A stretch of 32,906 bases of DNA, taken from positions 1 to 32,906 of IMG/VR virus record IMGVR_UViG_3300034198_030938; one strand, written 5' to 3'. This document shows positions 2 through 28,106 of this stretch, in pieces. Position 1 is the stretch's first letter; every line of letters starts with the position of its first letter. This DNA comes from a virus. The notes under the pieces were generated by a model that did no database searches, was not told where the DNA came from, and was given only the letters and a program-made list of their open reading frames with translations. The translations under genes and the position numbers were made by a program.

Positions 2-2878
2 GGAAAGTGGACCGACAAACTCGGTACCGACTGCGAACTCGGTGGCGCACGCGTCGCCCTCGCTCGTATCGGCGAGCGCATGCAACGGATCGCTCACAGC
101 GAGAACGCTCGCGGCGACCTCCCCTCGATCGGGGAACGCCTCGAGTTCCGGATGAATCGGATGGCCGACCGCCTCAACCCGCGCGGCGAGCGTGGCGGCA
201 AGCGACGCGGTCGCGGCGTGGCGACGGTCCTCGAGGATGCCGCTGATGTGCTCGACGGCGGGCGCGGTCGGAAGCGACGTGGTCGTGGCGTTGCCACGGC
301 GCTCGAGGATGCCGCCGACGTTGTCGATGGTGGTCGTGGACGCAAGAAGCCCGGTCGTGGCGTTGCCACGGCACTGGAAGATGCCGCCAATGCCGTCGAC
401 GGCGGCAAGGGCCAGAAGCCCGGTCGTGGCGTCGCCACCGCGCTTGAGGACGCCGCCGACGCCATTGACGGGGGGAAGGGCAAGAAGCGAAAGACCGAAG
501 GGCGGCTTCCTCGCCCGAAGAAGAAGACTCGGCGTGGTGCCGCCACCGTCATGGACGATGCTGCCGACGCTCTCGACGGCGGGCAGGGCCGTCGCCGCAA
601 CGACGGTGCGCCAAACATCACCGTACGCGATCGTGGCGAAAATGCCCTTATCGAGGGCCGTCGCCTGAACGAGCAGGCGCAGCGCGTGCTCCTCGAGGAA
701 GAGCGGCGTCGTCGGGCCGCCGAAGGGCTCGATGCGCGCACCGACGTTACCGCAGCGCGCTCCATGCCCAGATTGGACTTGACTCCGAAGGATTCGTCGG
801 TGGCTCGCCGTCGTCGGCGCGCTCCGAAGTACGAAGACGTGATCGAGCGCGACGGCAAGGACATCACGAAGTTCAACGAGGACGAGTTGCGAGCGCATCG
901 CGACGTTCTTGATGGAGAACTCAAGGACCTGCAGAAGCAGCGGAATGAAGCCCGGAAACGGATGCGCGATCCTGAGGGCGCTGGTCACGGCGAGACTGTC
1001 CAGATTCAGGACTACAACGACCAGATCGAGGCGAAGCGCGCTGCGATCAAGATCATCGATCAGCAGATCGAGCAGGTGCGTCGCCCGGCAGAGACGAAGC
1101 CGGGCAACGACATCTTGCCGCCGAACTCGCCCGAGAAGCCGAAGCCCGCACCGAAGCCGCGTCCTCGCCCGAAGCGTCCGCCGCGTCCGAAGGCTCCGGC
1201 GACGCCGAAAGAGCCGAGTGCGGTCAAGCCCGACTCGCCGAAGGCGCCGTCGGGTTCGCGTCGTCCTCTCGATGAAATCGACAAGGACCTTGACGGTGCG
1301 GATCGAGAACTCAAAGAACTCGACAAACTTGTCGACTACTGGGAGAGCGAGGCGCGTCGTCCGCCGCGCCGGAACCCACCGCCTCACGTTCAGTCGAACC
1401 TGACCGAGTGGCGATCGGCAGAGCAGGATCGGCCCGAAATGGCTCGCGCGCGAGCGCGCGACTTTGCGCGCCAGCGCGACGAGAAGCGGCGAGAGGTCGA
1501 GGCACTCCGCAAGGAACGCAAGGACGCCGAAGATGCGATGAAGGCGAGTCTCGACGCGTCCATCGAGCGTCGCATGGCGGAAGATGCCGCCGGGGAAGCG
1601 TCGATTCCGCCCGCTACGCCGCCCAACCCGTCGGGTTCGACGCCCAAGCCGTCACCGAAGCCGAAGCCAAAGCCGAAGCCGAAGAAGCCGCGTCAGCCGA
1701 AACCCAAGAATCCCGCAGGGCCCGAAAACAAGGGTCCGCGCAAGATGACCTACAAAGAGGCCGAGCAGCATCTCAAGGGTGGCGGCGACATCGGTGAAGT
1801 GCCCGATGGGCTCGTCGTCGAAGCGATGCTCGACTCCAACCTGCGCATTCGGGGCAAAGCAGGGACGTTCCGATTTCAGGACGTGCTCACGCCGGACAAG
1901 CGCGAAAATCCCATCAACAAGGGCTGGTCGGCCGAGAACGATCGATTCGCATTCAAGTGCATCAAAGCCTCTAATGGCTACGACGTCTGGCACGTGTTCC
2001 AAGTCACCGACAAGAAGAACGGTCGCGTGTACTTCCTCAAGGCATCGACGTACGGCAACAACGATGCGATGCTTGAGAAGGTCGGAGCGCAGGCTCTCGA
2101 CATTCACGGTTTCCCAGTCGATCCCGAAGGGCAGGTACGCCTAGGTGGCGTGATGCGATTCCGGAACGGCAAGGAAGTCCGGTGGTCCTTGCAGCCTGCG
2201 GTGTGGGACGTCTACAAGGGTCGATACGTCGGGCAAAAGCCGGATGGCAAGTTCAAGGAAGTTGGCGAGGTAGCACACGAGCGCGCGTTCTGGGTCAACA
2301 ACAACGGGAAGGGCAAAGTCGATCCGGTTGAACTTGCCAATCTGATCATGCTCGATTTCCTGTATCAAAACGAAGACCGTCACGCCGGAAACCTTATGAT
2401 GTACCGAGGTAAAGACGGTTACGTAAACCTCGCACCCATCGATCAGGGACTGCTGTTTGGTGGGCGAATTCGTGCGGGAAACCATCGAGGAATGTCTCCG
2501 GCAGCCTTTGAGCAGCAACTTGCCGATGAGTTCGAACGAATCAAGGATTACGACGCAAAGGGTTACCGGCGATCTCCCAACAACGGTGCGGCGATGTTCC
2601 GTGCTCTTGTGGGTAAAGCCGAGCAAAATGGGCGCGCTTACAATCGAGCCGAAAAAAAAGCGATGGTTGACGAAATTACAAGACTGCAGGAGTACTACAA
2701 CACGCTAAATGCCGATGAGATGTTCGCGCCTGAAAACTTCGAAAAGGCGGGGGCTCGGTTGACGCAGAATGAGCGCATTCACTTGGAGTACATGAAACGG
2801 TTGTTTGTTGCACGTCGAGAAACTCTCAACCGACTGGGTCCGCAAGGTTTCCTCGATCAACTGATGGCAGGTATGTGA
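2..2878 (+). CDS. Repeat-bearing virion-type protein with PI3/4-kinase-like C-terminal domain (left-truncated)
   Basis: The frame is open to the left edge, so the true start lies outside; the first ATG inside is at 80. Residues below are counted from that ATG. From about residue 44 there are five copies of a 23-26 residue unit, GRGVATxLEDAADxxDGG followed by a basic GRGRK-type linker. A long charged, proline/lysine-rich and coiled-coil stretch follows to about residue 560. The C-terminal part has a candidate ATP-binding lysine (YFLKAS, K654), a catalytic-loop-like EDRHAGN (D766, N771) and a metal-binding-like IDQG (D788). This order (Lys, DRHxxN, DxG) is that of the PI3/4-kinase/HipA-like superfamily, so a protein or small-molecule kinase is plausible. 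Position just before head genes suggests a virion or MuF-like fusion protein. The N-terminus is missing, so that is inference. Kinase activity is unproven; a degenerate fold is possible. Confidence 0.75.
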   Translation, partial: GKWTDKLGTDCELGGARVALARIGERMQRIAHSENARGDLPSIGERLEFRMNRMADRLNPRGERGGKRRGRGVATVLEDAADVLDGGRGRKRRGRGVATALEDAADVVDGGRGRKKPGRGVATALEDAANAVDGGKGQKPGRGVATALEDAADAIDGGKGKKRKTEGRLPRPKKKTRRGAATVMDDAADALDGGQGRRRNDGAPNITVRDRGENALIEGRRLNEQAQRVLLEEERRRRAAEGLDARTDVTAARSMPRLDLTPKDSSVARRRRRAPKYEDVIERDGKDITKFNEDELRAHRDVLDGELKDLQKQRNEARKRMRDPEGAGHGETVQIQDYNDQIEAKRAAIKIIDQQIEQVRRPAETKPGNDILPPNSPEKPKPAPKPRPRPKRPPRPKAPATPKEPSAVKPDSPKAPSGSRRPLDEIDKDLDGADRELKELDKLVDYWESEARRPPRRNPPPHVQSNLTEWRSAEQDRPEMARARARDFARQRDEKRREVEALRKERKDAEDAMKASLDASIERRMAEDAAGEASIPPATPPNPSGSTPKPSPKPKPKPKPKKPRQPKPKNPAGPENKGPRKMTYKEAEQHLKGGGDIGEVPDGLVVEAMLDSNLRIRGKAGTFRFQDVLTPDKRENPINKGWSAENDRFAFKCIKASNGYDVWHVFQVTDKKNGRVYFLKASTYGNNDAMLEKVGAQALDIHGFPVDPEGQVRLGGVMRFRNGKEVRWSLQPAVWDVYKGRYVGQKPDGKFKEVGEVAHERAFWVNNNGKGKVDPVELANLIMLDFLYQNEDRHAGNLMMYRGKDGYVNLAPIDQGLLFGGRIRAGNHRGMSPAAFEQQLADEFERIKDYDAKGYRRSPNNGAAMFRALVGKAEQNGRAYNRAEKKAMVDEITRLQEYYNTLNADEMFAPENFEKAGARLTQNERIHLEYMKRLFVARRETLNRLGPQGFLDQLMAGM
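209..595 (+). repeat. Five in-frame tandem repeats (about 69-78 nt) in the kinase-like gene
   Basis: Each unit encodes GRGVATxLEDAADxxDGG plus a basic tail. The first three periods are 72, 72 and 69 nt. The fourth and fifth units are separated by a Lys/Arg-rich insertion. The acidic helix LEDAAD alternates with basic GRGRK linkers. Confidence 0.85.
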
Positions 2879-3267
2879 TGAGCAAGTACGTTCTTATCCG
2901 TCGTACGGACTGGCCCAAGAACGCCCCCTACTTTGGGGCGATTTACGCGGCCGACAACGGCACGCTGACGGCGTGGGGACTCTGCGCTCCGTGGATTTAC
3001 GGCTCCGTCAAGGACGTCCCCACGAAGCCCACGACCTTCGCTACGGCAACGTACAAAGAAGCAGATTCGCTCGCGCCGCTGCTGCAGATCGGCAGCCAGA
3101 CATCAGATAAGTACGACGTCGAGCAAGACGACGACGCTTCGACCGACGCGCTCGCTCGGCTCAACAGTCTGGCTTACATTATCGATCCGCCGTTCACGAA
3201 GTGGAACGACCCGACGATCTACGACGGCGCACCGTTCATGCTGTTCGATTCAGCCGCCGACGAGTAG
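2878..3267 (+). CDS. Hypothetical protein, 129 aa
   Basis: I do not recognise the family. The stop of the upstream gene and this ATG overlap as TGATG, so translation is probably coupled. An AGG sits about 6 nt before the ATG. An in-frame GTG three bases earlier (2875) is an alternative start. The protein opens MSKYVLIRRTDWPKNAPYFG and is rich in aromatic residues, with no signal peptide or membrane segment. The middle is acidic (EQDDDASTDAL). Being wedged between the kinase-like protein and the Dps-like protein, it is probably a late structural or packaging accessory; that is position-based inference only. Confidence 0.7.
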   Translation: MSKYVLIRRTDWPKNAPYFGAIYAADNGTLTAWGLCAPWIYGSVKDVPTKPTTFATATYKEADSLAPLLQIGSQTSDKYDVEQDDDASTDALARLNSLAYIIDPPFTKWNDPTIYDGAPFMLFDSAADE

Positions 3268-3275
3268 GGGCCGGA

Positions 3276-4193
3276 GTGGAGCAGAGAAGCCCCACGCGCG
3301 CTGAGGCGCTACGCCTTGCCCGGCGGCTGGGCTGCGACGGCGCTCACCAACTGCCGGACGGCAGTTGGGCACCGTGCGCTGCGCCCGATGGCCTGCAGGC
3401 TATTGTATCGGAAGGCCCAAAAGGCTACGAGAAGTGGAAAGCCACTCGGCGTCGCGAATCGCTGCGAGGCGAACACGGCATTCGAGGCATCAACACCCTA
3501 CCCGGAGGTGGACTCGTGTCCGCCTCCCCGACCGGCCCCTTCGGGGGCAAGGACGCACGCGACATGACGACCGACAGCACCAAGAACTGGGACGAGATGA
3601 GCGAGTGGCAGAACCTCGTCGGGGATCCTCCCGCCGACGACCTGTTCCTCATCGCCGACGAGGTTGACGTCAAGGATGGCATGCTCGACGCGATGATGCA
3701 GGCGATGCCCGGTCACGACGACGAGGACAGCAACGAAGGGGACAACGAGGAGGGGGAGCACGCCGTGGCGACCGCCCTTCGGGTGCTTCTCTCGGATGTC
3801 GTGTCGTTCTATCTCCGGGCGCACGGGTTCCACTGGAACGTCGAGGGACCGGACTTCTCGGAGTACCACGCTCTGTTCGAGGCGATCTACTCCGACGCGT
3901 ACGAGTCGATCGACCCGATTGCCGAGAACATCCGTAAGTTGGGCGAGTACGCACCGTTCACCCTTGCGGCGTTCGCGTCGGCTCGGACGCTCGACGACTC
4001 GCAACTCGCCAAGCCGGACGCGATCACGCTCGCCTCGGACCTGCTCGACGCGAACGAGCAGGTGCTCGACACGCTGCGGCAGACGTTCCACGCGGCGAAC
4101 GATGCCGACGAGCAGGGTGTGGCGAACTTCATCGCCGAGCGCATCGACATGCACCAGAAGTGGGCATGGCAGTTGCGTTCCTCGCTCAAGTAA
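3276..4193 (+). CDS. Head-module protein with C-terminal Dps/ferritin-like domain
   Basis: I chose the GTG at 3276 because AGGGG precedes it by 5 nt and it follows the previous stop. An upstream GTG at 3201 would overlap that gene by 67 nt. Product 305 aa. Residues 12-50 hold a small motif with paired Cys (LGCDGAH, SWAPC). Residues 95-160 form an acidic linker (HDDEDSNEGDNEEG). Residues 162-305 match Dps: HWNVEGPDF with H186, then H198, E202, D213 and E217, in the spacing of the Dps inter-subunit ferroxidase site. Dps proteins oxidise and store iron and coat DNA as dodecamers. The fused, acidic N-terminal region and the position just upstream of the capsid gene suggest a virion or scaffold-related role instead. 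The Dps assignment is strong; the role is inferred. Confidence 0.85.
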   Translation: MEQRSPTRAEALRLARRLGCDGAHQLPDGSWAPCAAPDGLQAIVSEGPKGYEKWKATRRRESLRGEHGIRGINTLPGGGLVSASPTGPFGGKDARDMTTDSTKNWDEMSEWQNLVGDPPADDLFLIADEVDVKDGMLDAMMQAMPGHDDEDSNEGDNEEGEHAVATALRVLLSDVVSFYLRAHGFHWNVEGPDFSEYHALFEAIYSDAYESIDPIAENIRKLGEYAPFTLAAFASARTLDDSQLAKPDAITLASDLLDANEQVLDTLRQTFHAANDADEQGVANFIAERIDMHQKWAWQLRSSLK

Positions 4194-4199
4194 GCGGCA

Positions 4200-4643
4200 T
4201 CAAACCCGCTTGCGGCGGGTGCGCTTGATCGGAGTCGGCTCTTCGACCGCAGCGGCCTTCTTGGTTCCGCTCTGCTCCTCGATGCACGCCTTGACCTCGC
4301 TGAGCGTTCCTTCGACGTCGGAGAGTCGTTCCTCGATCCGGTCGGACTTCTTCTGCTCCCAGAGGATGTGGGACGTCATGGCGTTCGTTAGATTGAATAC
4401 CGACTCGCTGATCGTATCGACCTGCTTCTCGATCCTCACGAGGCGTTGCCCGACTGACGGGGTTTCACCCGGTACCGGCTCCTCGTCCACCCGATTCAGC
4501 GTGTCGACCACGGCATCGATCTTGCGGGAGTTTCGGTGGATTTGTCGGTAGATGCCCCAGAGAGCGGCAATGGCACCGACCGAAGCGGTGAGCAAGGCGG
4601 CTTCATCGGCGTACGAGCCGTTACGGGAGAGGTCCGGGAACAC
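4200..4643 (-). CDS. Membrane protein with N-terminal TM and coiled coil (DUF2746-like)
   Basis: 147 aa from a GTG at 4643, with GGAG about 10 nt upstream. Residues 14-32 (AALLTASVGAIAALWGIY) form one hydrophobic helix. The remainder is a charged heptad-like region (VGQRLVRIEKQVDTISESV, SDRIEERLSDVEGTLSEV), ending in a basic tail RTRRKRV. This layout resembles small single-pass phage membrane proteins grouped as DUF2746, some of which sit near lysis genes; I could not check this. It is the only minus-strand gene in the head module. It diverges from the capsid gene across a 224-bp intergenic region that holds an inverted repeat. It might be a holin-like or signalling protein, but no function is shown. 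Confidence 0.75.
   Translation of the reverse strand: MFPDLSRNGSYADEAALLTASVGAIAALWGIYRQIHRNSRKIDAVVDTLNRVDEEPVPGETPSVGQRLVRIEKQVDTISESVFNLTNAMTSHILWEQKKSDRIEERLSDVEGTLSEVKACIEEQSGTKKAAAVEEPTPIKRTRRKRV
4204..4220. terminator. Small GC hairpin between convergent genes
   Basis: ACCCGC-TTGCG-GCGGGT, a perfect 6-bp stem, lies at the convergent ends of the Dps-like gene and the minus-strand gene. There is no T tract, so it is only a candidate. Confidence 0.35.
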
Positions 4644-4867: not shown

Positions 4868-6187
4868 ATGAGCACCATCGACCCGAGCCGGGAGCGCGAA
4901 CTTCAGTCCGCGCTCGAGGCGAAGATGGCGGAGAACCGCTCGATCGCGGACTCGTTCCGCGTCGAGGACGGCGTCACCATCGTCTCCACCGAGCAGAAGA
5001 GCGCGTTCGACCAGAACATGCGCGACATCAAGGAGATCAAGAGCCTGATCGCTGGGCTTCAGGACCTCCGTTCCGTCGAGGACTGGCAGAGCCAGCCGAT
5101 GACCGACTCCGTGGCGGCTGCGGCTGCGGCGGGCCTCTCGATCAAGTCGGCCGGTGGCTACCGGACCGCCTCGCTCGGCGAGTTGTTCGTCGAGTCCGAC
5201 GAGTTCAAGTCGCTGCAGGGCGGCAAGGCCGGTGCGAACATGGTCGCGCCGTTCACGCTCAACACGGGCGACCTCGCGGGCACCTTCAGCAAGAAGGACG
5301 TCTACGCGGCCCTCCCGTCCGGCGACCGTCCGGGTAACTTCGGTACCCGCGAGCGCGACCCGATCGTGATCCCGCCGACTCGGACCCGTCGCATCCGCGA
5401 CCTGTTCCCGGCGCGCACGACCACCGCTGCGGTCATCGAGTACTTCCGCATGCTCGGCTTCACGACCCCCGGCACCACGGCTTCCAACGCCGCGTCGCCG
5501 GTCGCGGAGCGCTCGGGCAACGCGTTCGCCCTCAAGCCCCAGTCGTCCATGCAGTTCGAGGGTCATCAGGCTCCGATCCGGACGCTGGCCCACTGGGAGG
5601 CGGCGCACCGGAACGTCCTCGCTGACGAGCCGCAACTCCGGTCGATCATCGACAACGAGTTGCTCTACGGTCTGCGCCTGCAGGAGGACTACCAGATCCT
5701 GCAGGGCGACGGCACGGGTGAGAACCTGCTCGGCATCCTCAACACCTCGGGTGTCCAGCAGTACGACCACACCGCTGCCATCGCGTCGGACAACTACGGG
5801 GACGCGATCCGGCGAGCCGCTACGGCCTCGTTCCTCGCGTACTACGAGCCGACCGGCGTGGTCGTTCACCCGAACGACTGGGAGAAGATCGAGTTGACCA
5901 AGAACACTCAGGGCTCGTACCTGATGGCGGTCTCGATGCAGGTCGGCGCCGAGGCGCGGATCTGGCGGCTCCCGGTCATCGACACTCCGGCCATGCCGGA
6001 GGGCACCGGCCTCGTCGGTGCGTTCGGCACGGGTGCGCAGTTGTACGACCGTGAGCAGGCGACCATCCGGATCTCCGAGCAGCACGCGGACTTCTTCGTC
6101 CGCAACGCCGTGGTGATCCTTGCCGAGCAGCGTCTGGCTCTCGCCACCAAGCGGCCGGAGTCGTTCGTGCAGGTCACCTTCGCCTGA
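4868..6187 (+). CDS. Major capsid protein, HK97 family
   Basis: 439 aa from ATG 4868, preceded by GAGGAG at about 10 nt. The first ~75 residues are a charged coiled coil, like the delta (scaffold) domain of HK97-type capsid precursors. From about 170 on the HK97 fold features appear: IVIPPTRTRRIRDLFPA, EYFRMLGFTTPG, the ELLYGLRLQEDYQILQGDG stretch that precedes the A-domain, and the closing YDREQATIRISEQHADFFVR with NAVVILAEQRLALA. Size and order fit the family well. The protein forms the icosahedral shell. No separate prohead protease is seen in the window; it may lie further left. A strong terminator follows the stop. Confidence 0.95.
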   Translation: MSTIDPSRERELQSALEAKMAENRSIADSFRVEDGVTIVSTEQKSAFDQNMRDIKEIKSLIAGLQDLRSVEDWQSQPMTDSVAAAAAAGLSIKSAGGYRTASLGELFVESDEFKSLQGGKAGANMVAPFTLNTGDLAGTFSKKDVYAALPSGDRPGNFGTRERDPIVIPPTRTRRIRDLFPARTTTAAVIEYFRMLGFTTPGTTASNAASPVAERSGNAFALKPQSSMQFEGHQAPIRTLAHWEAAHRNVLADEPQLRSIIDNELLYGLRLQEDYQILQGDGTGENLLGILNTSGVQQYDHTAAIASDNYGDAIRRAATASFLAYYEPTGVVVHPNDWEKIELTKNTQGSYLMAVSMQVGAEARIWRLPVIDTPAMPEGTGLVGAFGTGAQLYDREQATIRISEQHADFFVRNAVVILAEQRLALATKRPESFVQVTFA

Positions 6188-8902: not shown

Positions 8903-9435
8903 CGGCATCGAGCGGGTTCTGGCGGTCAGTACGGGATCTCGCGAATCCAGAGGTCCTCGAAATCGGCACGCGTCGCTGGGGTGTCGAACCCACCCACCAT
9001 CGCGATGAGATTCCGCACGCGCAGCGGTACGTCATGGCCGACGTCACCGAAGGTGTTGATGTTGACGTCGTCTGCGATGCCCACGACCTTGCGCCGTTCC
9101 CGGACCGGTCGTTCGACGCGGTGCTGGCGTGCTCGGTGTGGGAGCACCTCGCGCGACCGTGGATCGCCGCCGAGGCCGTCGCGCGCGTCCTCAAGCCCGG
9201 TGGGCTCGTGTACGTCGCGACGCATCAGACCTTTCCTCTCCACGGGTATCCCCACGACTACTTCCGGTTCTCGACCGAGGCGCTCGCGATCCTGTTCGGA
9301 CCGCCGCTGTTCACGCCGTCGATCACCAACTATGTGTTCCCGGCGAAGATCACGCCGCCCTCCGGGCAGGGCATCGTGTGGAATGCGGCTGCCCCCGCAT
9401 ACCTCAACGTGGAGATCCTCGCCGTCCGCAACTAG
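8899..9435 (+). CDS. Class I SAM-dependent methyltransferase
   Basis: 178 aa from ATG 8899, overlapping the upstream stop as ATGA. Motif I is LEIGT at about residues 20-24; the acidic AdoMet-contact region is ADVTEG to VVCDAHDLAPFP; then come FDAVLACSVWEHLARP and a post-motif helix ending LKPGGLVYVAT. This is the Methyltransf_11 pattern typical of small-molecule or sugar methyltransferases rather than DNA methylases: no target-recognition domain and no DPPY/NPPF motif. A long C-terminal tail (HGYPHDYFRFSTEAL) resembles methyltransferases acting near glycans. It is the last gene of the cassette; its stop codon overlaps that of the convergent ribonucleotide reductase. Confidence 0.88.
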   Translation: MTASSGFWRSVRDLANPEVLEIGTRRWGVEPTHHRDEIPHAQRYVMADVTEGVDVDVVCDAHDLAPFPDRSFDAVLACSVWEHLARPWIAAEAVARVLKPGGLVYVATHQTFPLHGYPHDYFRFSTEALAILFGPPLFTPSITNYVFPAKITPPSGQGIVWNAAAPAYLNVEILAVRN

Positions 9436-11351
9436 CGGACCGGGCACGCTCCTCCGGCGCAGTCGTCGAACAGTTCGCCATCGGCGTACGTGTCGACCAT
9501 CGGCACCGAGAAGTCGACCTTCGCGAACATCTTCTCGTACTCCGCCTCCGTGATCTCCTCGTACGGCGGGAGCGGGAAGTTGTGATCCGCGTGGAGCAGG
9601 AACGACACGCTCTTGATGCTGTCATCATAGTGCGTCGCGAGCCACTCCTTGATCGCCGGGAGTTCCTCGAGCCGGTAGTAGACGGTCACCGACACGGCGT
9701 TGTCGGCCCAGTCGGTCTGGACGCGCTTGACCCACTCCAACTGCTCGACGGCCGTCATGTCGGCAGCGAGGATCGCGTTCTCGGGAGACTTGCACGGGAA
9801 CGACACGACATATCGCGAGTGGTCCTCGCGTCCGTCGATGCCGACGTCGAAGCACACGGGGTAGCCGCGCTTGCGGCACTTGTCGACGAGCGGGTCGCTC
9901 ACGCCGAACCGGACGCGCCGGATGTAGTGCCGGGCGAACGCCGGGTGGATGCCGGGAGTGACGCCGGGCAGCAGCGACAGCGTGCCGGACGGCTGGACGG
10001 TCGTGAGCCGCACCGACGGCGGCAGGTCGTGGTGGAGCGAGTACTCGACGTCGGTGTCGACGAGCGCCCGGAACGTCGGGTCAAGCCACGCCAACTGCTC
10101 GTCGGTTGCTTGCAGCACTCCGGTGATGGACTGACCGAGACGCATGTTCTTGCGGACGACCTTGTTCGTCTTCTCGTACGGGTAGTCCATCGCGGCGATG
10201 GCTTTCTGGACCTTGTAGAGCAGCGTCGACAGTTCGATCATCTGCGCTTGCGACTCGATGTTCGGGAGGAAGATCGTCGCGAGGTTGCAAGACTCGCCGT
10301 CGGCGAGGCCGATCTCGGCGCACGGGTTGAAGCCCTCGATGCTCGGGTCGCTGTGCCGTTCACCGAGGCGTCCGACCTTGCGCGCGAGCCGCCGGTTGAT
10401 GAGGCCGTACGGTTCGCCCGTGCCGTCGTAGCCGTGCCACAACTCGGGCATGATCTCGTCGTACGCGTCGGCGTAGATGCTGTTGTTCGAGTTCGCTCGC
10501 CAGCCGGGGATGTTGCCGGAGCCCCAGTTCTTCGCCCGCATGAACAAGACGTCGTCGGGGTCGCCGATCGCGATCTGCGCGCTGCGGCGCGACGAGCCGG
10601 ACACGACGATGCGGCCGATGATGTTGCAGATGTCGAGGACGTCGATGGAGCGCAACTTCTTGCCGTCGCGATTCTCCATCACCTTGCAGATGTCGGCGAC
10701 GCCGTCGATGAGCGCGCCGGGTCCGGAGGCGGTACCGCCAAACGTCTTGAGGGGCGCACCGAACTCACGGATGAGCAGCGTCGAGTAGGAGAACGACTTG
10801 CCGGTGTAGAAGTACGACTTCAGGACCGCGTGGATGAGTCGCGACCAGCCACGACGCGAGTCGGGGACGATGAGGTCAGCGTCGTTCGTACGCTCGTGCG
10901 TGATCTTGACGCCCTTGCGGACCTTCGGGAGGTCGTGGATCTTCGCGCGCTCGACGCTGTAGCCGACGCCGCCGCCGAGCATGAGGTGATCGAAGAGGAA
11001 CTCGAAGTCCTCGATCTTCTCGATGTTTGTGAAGTAGCAGTTGTTGAGCGACGCCGCGTTGTGCGACTGGACGAGCGGGGTCCCCAACTGCCAGAGCGCA
11101 CGACCCGAGAACGAGCCGCGCAGGTGGAACACGTGGTCGAAGAGCGCCTCGGCTTCTGCGTCGGTGAAGTCCACACCGATCTCGAGCGCACCGTTCACGC
11201 AGCGGGCGACGGTCTCGTGCCAGAGTTCCTTACGGCCGAAGTCGGTGTCGCGCGCGTAGGTGCGCAGGTACACGATCTCGCCGAGGCCGCCGAAGCCCCA
11301 CGGGGGCTGCTGCAGAGCGTAGGACGCAACAAAATCAGGGCTAAGACTCAA
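9432..11351 (-). CDS. nrdJ: Adenosylcobalamin-dependent (class II) ribonucleoside-triphosphate reductase
   Basis: The start is taken at the TTG 11351, which follows GAGGAG by 7 nt and yields the usual N-terminus (LSLSPDF...PPWGFGGLGEIVYLRTYAR). A TTG at 11399 would add 16 residues running through a hairpin and lacks a ribosome site. The product is 639 aa, close to the monomeric Lactobacillus leichmannii-type enzyme. Catalytic cysteines are in place: LNNC (C105), NPCAEIGL (C344, thiyl radical) and SCNL (C355). The C-terminal CAGGACP pair (C631, C636) shuttles electrons from thioredoxin. It reduces ribonucleotides to deoxyribonucleotides using coenzyme B12 from the host, supplying phage DNA synthesis without oxygen dependence. 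It is transcribed against the neighbouring late cassette. Confidence 0.95.
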   Translation of the reverse strand: MSLSPDFVASYALQQPPWGFGGLGEIVYLRTYARDTDFGRKELWHETVARCVNGALEIGVDFTDAEAEALFDHVFHLRGSFSGRALWQLGTPLVQSHNAASLNNCYFTNIEKIEDFEFLFDHLMLGGGVGYSVERAKIHDLPKVRKGVKITHERTNDADLIVPDSRRGWSRLIHAVLKSYFYTGKSFSYSTLLIREFGAPLKTFGGTASGPGALIDGVADICKVMENRDGKKLRSIDVLDICNIIGRIVVSGSSRRSAQIAIGDPDDVLFMRAKNWGSGNIPGWRANSNNSIYADAYDEIMPELWHGYDGTGEPYGLINRRLARKVGRLGERHSDPSIEGFNPCAEIGLADGESCNLATIFLPNIESQAQMIELSTLLYKVQKAIAAMDYPYEKTNKVVRKNMRLGQSITGVLQATDEQLAWLDPTFRALVDTDVEYSLHHDLPPSVRLTTVQPSGTLSLLPGVTPGIHPAFARHYIRRVRFGVSDPLVDKCRKRGYPVCFDVGIDGREDHSRYVVSFPCKSPENAILAADMTAVEQLEWVKRVQTDWADNAVSVTVYYRLEELPAIKEWLATHYDDSIKSVSFLLHADHNFPLPPYEEITEAEYEKMFAKVDFSVPMVDTYADGELFDDCAGGACPVR

Positions 11352-11373
11352 CGGGATGCTCCTCGACCTAAGC

Positions 11374-11387
11374 GCGGCCCCTGCCGC
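11374..11387. promoter_or_regulatory. Hairpin in the nrdJ leader
   Basis: GCGGC-CCCT-GCCGC (5-bp stem, 4-nt loop) lies between the two possible nrdJ starts, 22 nt upstream of TTG 11351. It favours the downstream start and may tune expression. It does not have the size of a cobalamin riboswitch. Confidence 0.35.
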
Positions 11388-11440
11388 ACGGAGGATCAAC
11401 CATACAGTGCGTTAGCGATCTGTAGCGACAGTCGATCGGG

Positions 11441-26036: not shown

Positions 26037-28106
26037 GTGACCATTCCCCGAGTCCCTCTACGCATCGAAGCGTATGACCCCGACGCCAAGGACGGCGATG
26101 GCGACGGCATCGTTCAAGACGGGACTGCGTGGGAGCGGCCCGTTGCTACTCGCATCCTCGACGAACTCGGTCGAGAGATCGCTCGAGGCCACACGAGCGC
26201 ATTTCGCCCCAAGAACCTGCGTTACGTCGACAAACACGGCAAAGACGTCAACTACACGCCGAAGCACGCCTCGCCGGAACCTCCTTCCACGACAAGTCGG
26301 ACTGCGCTGGAGCGCCTCGGCCACTCGTCCCTCGGACGTCGCAGCCCATCGATTGGTTCGAAACGACCCGGTCTCAGCGATCTGGGCCACGCCAGCATCA
26401 TTGACCGGCACGATCCGCCGAAGCCGCCGAGCCCCGGGAAGATCCCGAAGATCACCGAGTCCACTTCCTCGAGGAAGAAGGTGACCGCAGCGTTCTCCGG
26501 CGAGGACGGAGCGCTCGAGATCCTTCGTCAGCATTGGGCAGAACTCGTGGGACTCGAGCAGAACATTGCTGCGATGGATGGTCCGAACACGTTTCTAAAG
26601 GGAGAAGGCGACAAAGTCGCCGAGCGCCTCGCCCAGATTCAGGGCGGCTTCGACGGACTGCCGGTACCCATCACGAGCGAGCAGGCTCGGGCGCTCGACG
26701 CCGCCGGGGCTGAGCGGATCTTCCGAGTGATCGATGACCCGGCGTTCGTCGAGGCGCTCCGCACGGGGCAACATCGAGCGGGCACGGGGATGTGGGGTTC
26801 GGGTATTTACACGAGTCCTGATGTGGACTGGATCCAAGACTTCAGCGTAGTGAAAATTCCAACAGGTAAAGACATTGGGAAGAACTACACGATGTTTTAT
26901 CTTGACCCGAACGCTCGAGTGATTGAGGTCAGTGAACTGCGAGCGTTGCAACGACAACTTAGTGCAGAGTTGATTGATGGCGTTCCAGAACTTGCTGCGA
27001 TCAAAGCGAAGTACGCCGACCGGAAGCCCCGCACCCCCGAGGAGCAAGCCGAGTTTCGCAAGTATCTTGTTGCGTCCCAGATGATCAACAACTACGGGCG
27101 ACTTGCTGCACTACTCGGGTACGACGCCATCGACGTACAACACGACCCGTCAGCACCAACTCGACTCAAGCGCGGTCTCGCTCGAGGAAACGAAGTTGTC
27201 GTCATCAACCGCACCGCCCTGCGACTTCCGCCGCAACCTTCCGACCTCGAGTGGCGAGAACTCGGTCGCATCGCACACGGTCCACGGCTCGCCGAACGAA
27301 CGGCGCGACTGGGCATCTCCCCCGGGGCTACCCACATCCCCGAGTTCGCCACTCCAGAACAAGTCGATGAACTAATCCTCAAGAACGGTCTTGCGTTCGT
27401 TGATCTCATCAACCCAGATCTCACCGCCAACGAAGCGTTCTTCGGGCAACCCGACGAAGCACTTCGCGCCATCGTCCACATGCAAGGATTCGATGCGCCG
27501 CCGGTTCCCGTCACCAAAGCCGAGGTCGCAGCGCTCGAGGAGGCCCGAGCCCCGGTGGTGTACCGGGCGCTCGACGAGGTCGAACACGTGCGCGACCTTC
27601 GGGAGGGGTACTACTGGCCCGGGACTGGGGTTCACGGGGCGGGGATTTACGTCGCTCCTGATGCGGATGTCGTCGGCGACTACACGACGGTCGAGTTGGA
27701 CTCACATCCAAATCCGGGGAAGCACTGGACGAAGTTCTACCTTGATCCAAACGCACGAGTCATCACGTTGGAACAGGTGCGAGCGGAAGCCGAGCGGTTG
27801 CGAGCGCAACACGCACCCAGACTGACGCTCATGCAGGAGCGGCGAGAGCAGTTCAGATCAGTGCGAGAACCAGATGTACCAGCATCCGATCTGGTTGATC
27901 CCACGAAGTTGTTCGATGATTACGGGCGAGTCGCAGCGTTGCTGGGGTACGACGCCATTCTCGTCGAGGGAGACAACCCCGAGTATGTCGTGCTGAACCG
28001 GAGTGCGCTGCGGCTGCCGCCCCAGCCGTCCCGGGCGGAGTGGCGTCGCATCGGTAAAGAGGCTCGAGCAGCAGCCAACGCCGGGGTTGACTCTGCTAAC
28101 AACTAG
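26037..28106 (+). CDS. Protein with two tandem ADP-ribosyltransferase-like domains
   Basis: 689 aa from GTG 26037. Residues 13-33 hold YDPDAKDGDGDGIVQDGTAW, a calcium-loop-like motif frequent in actinophage proteins. Residues 50-150 look disordered. Then two copies of one domain follow, about 205-412 and 485-672. Each has an early Arg (IFRVID R230; VYRALD R510), a G-rich turn with GxGIY (GTGMWGSGIYTS; GTGVHGAGIYVA), FYLDPNARVI, YGRLAALLGYDA and a closing VVxINRTALRLPPQP. Arg followed by GxGIY is the NAD-binding pattern of ADP-ribosyltransferases and related folds. A clear catalytic Glu or R-S-E triad was not identified, so activity is unproven. It could be a host-directed effector delivered or expressed by the phage. 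The internal duplication is clear. Confidence 0.78.
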   Translation: MTIPRVPLRIEAYDPDAKDGDGDGIVQDGTAWERPVATRILDELGREIARGHTSAFRPKNLRYVDKHGKDVNYTPKHASPEPPSTTSRTALERLGHSSLGRRSPSIGSKRPGLSDLGHASIIDRHDPPKPPSPGKIPKITESTSSRKKVTAAFSGEDGALEILRQHWAELVGLEQNIAAMDGPNTFLKGEGDKVAERLAQIQGGFDGLPVPITSEQARALDAAGAERIFRVIDDPAFVEALRTGQHRAGTGMWGSGIYTSPDVDWIQDFSVVKIPTGKDIGKNYTMFYLDPNARVIEVSELRALQRQLSAELIDGVPELAAIKAKYADRKPRTPEEQAEFRKYLVASQMINNYGRLAALLGYDAIDVQHDPSAPTRLKRGLARGNEVVVINRTALRLPPQPSDLEWRELGRIAHGPRLAERTARLGISPGATHIPEFATPEQVDELILKNGLAFVDLINPDLTANEAFFGQPDEALRAIVHMQGFDAPPVPVTKAEVAALEEARAPVVYRALDEVEHVRDLREGYYWPGTGVHGAGIYVAPDADVVGDYTTVELDSHPNPGKHWTKFYLDPNARVITLEQVRAEAERLRAQHAPRLTLMQERREQFRSVREPDVPASDLVDPTKLFDDYGRVAALLGYDAILVEGDNPEYVVLNRSALRLPPQPSRAEWRRIGKEARAAANAGVDSANN

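Follow-up and report, generated by a model that had tools for sequence, protein, structure and literature searches.

The window analysed here is a stretch of 32,906 nucleotides (positions 1 to 32,906 of the IMG/VR virus record IMGVR_UViG_3300034198_030938), and the same phage is also present in IMG/VR as a 43.5-kb contig that is identical to it across the 12.2 kb compared. The gene under study, whose 305-aa product we call P0001, belongs to a tightly packed cluster in which the 932-aa and 130-aa genes overlap by 4 nt and the 130-aa gene is separated from P0001 by 8 nt (Table 1). The C-terminus of the 932-aa protein gave only a weak match to PF00454 (PI3/4-kinase-like; E 1.3e-5, below the cut-off), and an array of repeats of about 23 aa was found near its N-terminus (TRF 184-488). 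Large ORFs occupy the place of this gene in the related loci L088, L093, L095 and L149, and a small gene takes that of the 130-aa gene in L088 and L149. The first-pass annotation of this DNA had placed P0001 beside the major capsid protein (MCP) gene; the MCP gene does come next on its strand, 0.7 kb downstream, but a minus-strand ORF lies between the two. This ORF is 47% identical to the one found at the equivalent place in L085, the nearest relative, where the same gene order is observed, minus-strand ORF included. Downstream of the MCP gene, the window encodes a phage ribonucleotide reductase with features of the B12-dependent class (9432-11399, minus strand), and L086, L088, L090, L093 and L095 have a similar gene in the neighbourhood of the MCP.

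Table 1. Features of P0001 and of the genes around it in the window (MCP, major capsid protein).
Feature	Position	Strand	Basis or remark
932-aa gene, repeats, weak kinase-like C-terminus	80..2878	+	First gene of the tight cluster
130-aa gene, no family match	2875..3267	+	Directly upstream of P0001
Dps fusion gene P0001, 305 aa, GTG start	3276..4193	+	ORF list
DUF3721-type module, aa 6-35	3291..3380	+	PF12518
GIRGINTLPGGGLVSA motif, aa 68-83	3477..3524	+	Alignment; common to genes directly upstream of MCP
Linker, largely disordered in the AlphaFold model, acidic beyond about aa 100	3525..3767	+	pLDDT, charge table
Dps ferritin-like domain, aa 165-305 (about 140 C-terminal residues)	3768..4190	+	PF00210, AF2, Foldseek
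H186, ferroxidase ligand	3831..3833	+	Kept in 149/150 phage Dps
H198, ferroxidase ligand	3867..3869	+	Kept in 149/150 phage Dps
D213, ferroxidase ligand	3912..3914	+	Kept in 149/150 phage Dps
E217, ferroxidase ligand	3924..3926	+	Kept in 149/150 phage Dps
ORF between Dps gene and MCP, possibly membrane/coiled-coil (by eye)	4200..4643	-	Conserved in L085
MCP, HK97 type	4868..6187	+	PF05065, E 1.3e-44; phrog_10, E 2.6e-55

Based on Pfam searches, the family PF00210 (Ferritin) covers residues 167-304 of P0001 (E 4.6e-16, 59.5 bits, cut-off 24.5). The protein also matches phrog_3636 in PHROGs (E 2.1e-26), and its nearest solved chain is the Pseudomonas aeruginosa Dps 8ff9 (E 2.1e-27). AlphaFold modelled the domain with a pLDDT of 92-98, and the top Foldseek matches of the model were Dps-type mini-ferritins only, 8ff9 among them with a TM-score of 0.90 on the target and 36% identity. 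Profile, model and structural search thus agree on a four-helix ferritin-like domain, and the assignment of the C-terminal part of P0001 to Dps, made from sequence and predicted structure, is far beyond chance. The ORF, its coordinates and the residues given in the first-pass annotation were right, as was its reading of a Dps-like domain with a complete ferroxidase set. H186, H198, D213 and E217 are spaced like H31, H43, D58 and E62 of Listeria Dps, the H, H, D and E of the inter-subunit site of this family, and the four residues are conserved in 149 of the 150 phage Dps domains that we collected. A basic DNA-binding tail is common among Dps proteins without being universal, and hence it is not required for membership. 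No Lys-rich tail of the DNA-binding type was seen in P0001; the charge table gave an acidic linker and a net charge of -11 to -12 for the Dps domain. The earlier suggestion that Dps binds DNA in the head is disfavoured by these figures: direct binding through a basic tail finds no support, and direct DNA binding is unlikely because the protein is strongly acidic.

The part ahead of the Dps domain had been described as an acidic extension of 160 residues. Residues 100-160 are strongly acidic, yet residues 1-65 are approximately neutral to basic and hold a conserved module. PF12518 (DUF3721) matches aa 6-35 with E 2.9e-5 and 24.1 bits, slightly below the 27-bit cut-off, and reaches 27.4 bits, above the cut-off, in another record of the window's phage (G001). 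The module is modelled at a pLDDT of about 85, and values fall below 50 across most of aa 66-132, the region that holds the GIxTLPGGGLVSA motif. No clear equivalent of a GGLVSA-like processing site was found in the MCP of the window, and a search with PF07068 was uninformative, as it gave no match even in the controls. Because a scan with the N-terminal 156 aa alone matched nothing beyond the window's own phage population, we traced the module through its capsid neighbours and compared 80 loci with related MCPs over about 6 kb on each side of the MCP. Among all ORFs of these loci, the gene immediately preceding the MCP gene accounted for 51 of the 53 matches to the DUF3721-like module and for 47 of the 49 matches to the GIxTLPGGGLVSA motif. 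Five of the loci counted are copies of the window's phage, and some others are nearly identical to one another; without those five copies, the module count falls to about 46 of 48 and the motif count to about 42 of 44. A search of whole records of up to 138 kb, which frees the DUF3721 count from the limit of about 6 kb, found the module in 23 of 26 records, in a single ORF each, and this ORF lies upstream of the MCP in all of the approximately nine whole records checked by coordinates. In Roseobacter phage CRP-821 (L185, 2653-5577) a module of these upstream genes stands inside the annotated major capsid protein precursor. A 'DGDGDGIVQDGTAWERP' module opens a 689-aa protein encoded elsewhere in the window (26037-28106, plus strand; phrog_7924, E 2.7e-5) and also occurs in genes of this kind upstream of the MCP; the 689-aa protein continues with two similar halves that look ADP-ribosyltransferase-like by eye and gave no Pfam match.

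What follows the shared N-terminal elements differs from one relative to another. The upstream gene of L085 is 50% identical to P0001 across aa 18-83 and different beyond that, with no Dps. Zeta_toxin domains were found in L086, L118, L128 and L149, an HTH array in L126 and DUF5824-like modules in L085, L088 and L133. The genes with zeta-toxin-like kinase cargo span 1182-5855 in L086, 3532-5868 in L118, 1779-5630 in L128 and 3987-5828 in L149. We define a carrier gene here as one that lies upstream of the MCP and combines DUF3721 with GIxTLPGGGLVSA, and P0001 has both elements at that place. Because relatives share these elements upstream of the MCP and exchange the rest, P0001 is, as judged from its sequence and position, a capsid-upstream carrier gene that bears Dps as its cargo, and the N-terminal DUF3721 and 'GGLVSA' would be the signature of a gene that brings in interchangeable proteins. 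The first-pass annotation had assigned this slot to head maturation or scaffold genes. Its link to the capsid stands, but the slot belongs to a gene with swappable cargo, and in the relatives of this lineage that were checked the S78 prohead protease is encoded some 20 kb from it. No Peptidase_S78 domain was detected in P0001 or anywhere in the 43.5-kb contig, and the idea that Dps occupies the protease slot in the window lineage was rejected. The cargo itself is rare: a ferritin-family match was present in only two of 50 records with window-like MCPs and absent from the other 48, and in both cases it lay within 0.9 kb of the MCP, for which random placement would have a chance of roughly 5% each (a rough estimate).

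The company of toxins bears on the first of three other readings, namely that packaged Dps leaves the head together with the DNA, in the way of T4 Alt or of other carrier cargo such as the zeta toxins, and either buffers iron and peroxide or acts on DNA in the new host cell. We regard this as unlikely. The Dps 12-mer is wider than the typical tail channel, so that an ejected Dps would have to leave unfolded or as single subunits. Its diameter is about 9 nm (PMC10002758), and the Dps-protease fusions described below favour assembly over ejection. Nevertheless, the toxin-like enzymes of the sister carriers make most sense inside the host, injection has been proposed for polyvalent proteins (PMC5512222) and the 12-mer of PA0962, the closest solved Dps, has DNA-cleaving activity in vitro (PMC10002758).

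We then looked at Dps across phages. A scan of IMG/VR with P0001 gave 390 relatives, the best 80 of which were used, and scans with divergent Dps added 58 further loci that partly overlap the first set. In-frame combinations with head proteins took several forms: a Dps-S78 protease fusion in L055 and its kin, a module-Dps-S78 fusion between portal and MCP in L175 and L176, an S78-Dps fusion 108 nt ahead of the MCP in L225, L228 and L229, and, in L023, L073, L202, L223, L226 and L230, a Dps close to the C-terminal end of a large S78-type polyprotein. Standalone Dps genes follow shortly after the capsid gene in L174 and L177 and directly after the protease gene in L033. L174, L175, L176 and L177 are listed as MAGs of Gammaproteobacteria, Betaproteobacteria, Actinomycetota and Proteobacteria, but they carry phage head genes and hence are phage contigs binned with bacteria. 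The S78-Dps arrangement bears on a second reading, in which Dps serves assembly: its oligomer would make up or seed a core or scaffold inside the head, and its iron chemistry would come second. S78-type proteases often have a scaffold part, and in L225 and L228 Dps comes after the protease just before the MCP; even so, we consider this reading quite improbable, since a pure scaffold would not need the ferroxidase residues that are kept in nearly every domain collected. The lack of a ferritin-family match in most related-capsid records also speaks against it, as does the fact that the MCP of the window has its own N-terminal region before the capsid domain.

Taking as head-linked any Dps fused to, or at most 3 kb from, a capsid, portal or protease gene, 24 of 36 clusters (70% identity) are head-linked, in a count where L187/L188 were tallied as 'other' in spite of a protease match in L188 and where sampling was not neutral (L134 and L149 were reached via the capsid, some fusions were found with a fusion as query, and a head-linked Dps was the query of one scan). 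However, the two largest clusters (57 and 20, or 77 of the 150 loci) hold standalone Dps genes away from head genes; most of these have terminase genes nearby, or baseplate genes on one side and replication genes on the other. The named phages examined encode Dps in the company of genes for replication or metabolism. In cultured relatives (Gordonia Chidieberevirus and Bendigovirus, Brevibacterium Cantarevirus) Dps does not lie beside the capsid gene, where a capsid maturation protease or another gene was found instead. The survey of related phages that the first-pass annotation had called for found Dps fused to or near head genes in most clusters and elsewhere in the two most populous ones. 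In a quick tree of Dps domains, which has long branches and few columns, head-linked Dps appeared in four separate places with 4 label changes, at least two of them forced by strong branches.

It is on the raw count of loci and on the named phages that the third reading draws, according to which P0001 is an ordinary auxiliary Dps against oxidative stress in the infected cell and its head-gene neighbourhood a coincidence. This is also the published explanation, in which phage Dps are intracellular oxidative-stress or iron proteins (PMC8008677, PMC6669764), encoded among replication or metabolism genes in Lactobacillus phages (PMC6669764). We find it improbable for P0001, as it leaves unexplained both the in-frame fusions to capsid-linked carriers and prohead proteases and the majority of clusters that lie near head genes.

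With some reservation, we favour the view that P0001 is a Dps directed to the head, where it would clear iron and peroxide from the vicinity of the DNA, be it in the prohead or in the virion. What the sequence itself shows is the fold, an intact ferroxidase site, the carrier module and, in other phages, the fusion of Dps to head genes or its proximity to them. Because P0001 joins a capsid-gene module to Dps and other phages fuse Dps to the protease, Dps is probably built into the head, and the near-exclusive link of the carrier region to the capsid gene suggests that this region probably takes the protein into the prohead; its targeting role is putative and is deduced from position. The carrier part would place Dps inside the prohead during assembly, in the manner of the T4 capsid-targeting sequence, and in the other phages found the protease fusion would carry it there. 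Once packaged, and presumably assembled as a 12-mer, Dps would oxidise Fe(II) with peroxide and store the iron, keeping Fenton chemistry off the DNA. The head role put forward in the first-pass annotation is supported by the capsid-linked module and by the fusions and Dps-capsid neighbours seen elsewhere, although the presence of P0001 in the virion is itself deduced from these, and the intact ferroxidase site fits the protection of packaged DNA, a function that P0001 may have. Three points run counter to the head-directed reading: translation from an internal start could yield a Dps that lacks the module, the minus-strand ORF parts P0001 from the MCP, and the two largest clusters, like the Dps of the named phages, are not associated with head genes. 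Extending the head-directed reading to other phages is more tentative, but it is quite conceivable that several lineages independently put a working Dps ferroxidase in their heads, as carrier cargo or within the protease, giving the virion a ferritin-like antioxidant core and making it the viral equivalent of an encapsulin loaded with ferritin.

The protection that a virion gives its DNA is usually regarded as purely passive. If the head-directed reading is true, a di-iron ferroxidase in the capsid would amount to active antioxidant protection of the packaged genome, which might explain part of the persistence of phages in oxidising environments. A further prediction, drawn from the carrier module encoded ahead of the MCP, is that zeta toxins, HTH arrays and Dps are loaded into heads as interchangeable cargo. 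Among the open-licence papers in PMC we found none on Dps fused to phage head proteins, an absence that is not proof, and none on DUF3721 in phages; the pattern of Dps-head-protein fusions looks new.

Among known systems, PA0962 of P. aeruginosa (8ff9; PMC10002758) shares with P0001 the fold, the ferroxidase type and the lack of a Lys-rich tail, but it is a free-standing cellular protein of about 156 aa without a capsid-linked module. The standalone Dps of phages (phrog_3636; Lactobacillus phages, PMC6669764; Gratiaviridae, PMC8008677) are phage-encoded like P0001, whereas no fusion to a head module has been reported for them. In T4, the capsid-targeting sequence takes internal proteins into the prohead (PMC9958956), and the internal proteins and Alt (PMC9958956, PMC5512222) thus offer an analogy for the logic proposed here, an N-terminal element that brings cargo into the prohead core; the T4 element has about 10 aa and is cleaved in the prohead, whereas the putative targeting region of P0001 combines the GGLVSA motif with a DUF3721 module some 30 aa long. 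Polyvalent proteins (Iyer et al. 2017, PMC5512222) are likewise modular, have virion genes as neighbours and are expected to enter the virion, but they have at least two conflict-related domains, whereas P0001 has one cargo domain and the DUF3721 module beside the MCP; that survey makes no mention of ferritin. Encapsulin shells share the HK97 fold. The closest functional parallel is the Myxococcus EncA/EncB/EncC encapsulin (PMC9321382), in which a protein shell encloses ferritin-like cargo. Encapsulins store iron for the cell and contain no genome, whereas the setting of P0001 would be a DNA-filled phage head reached by means of a different carrier element.
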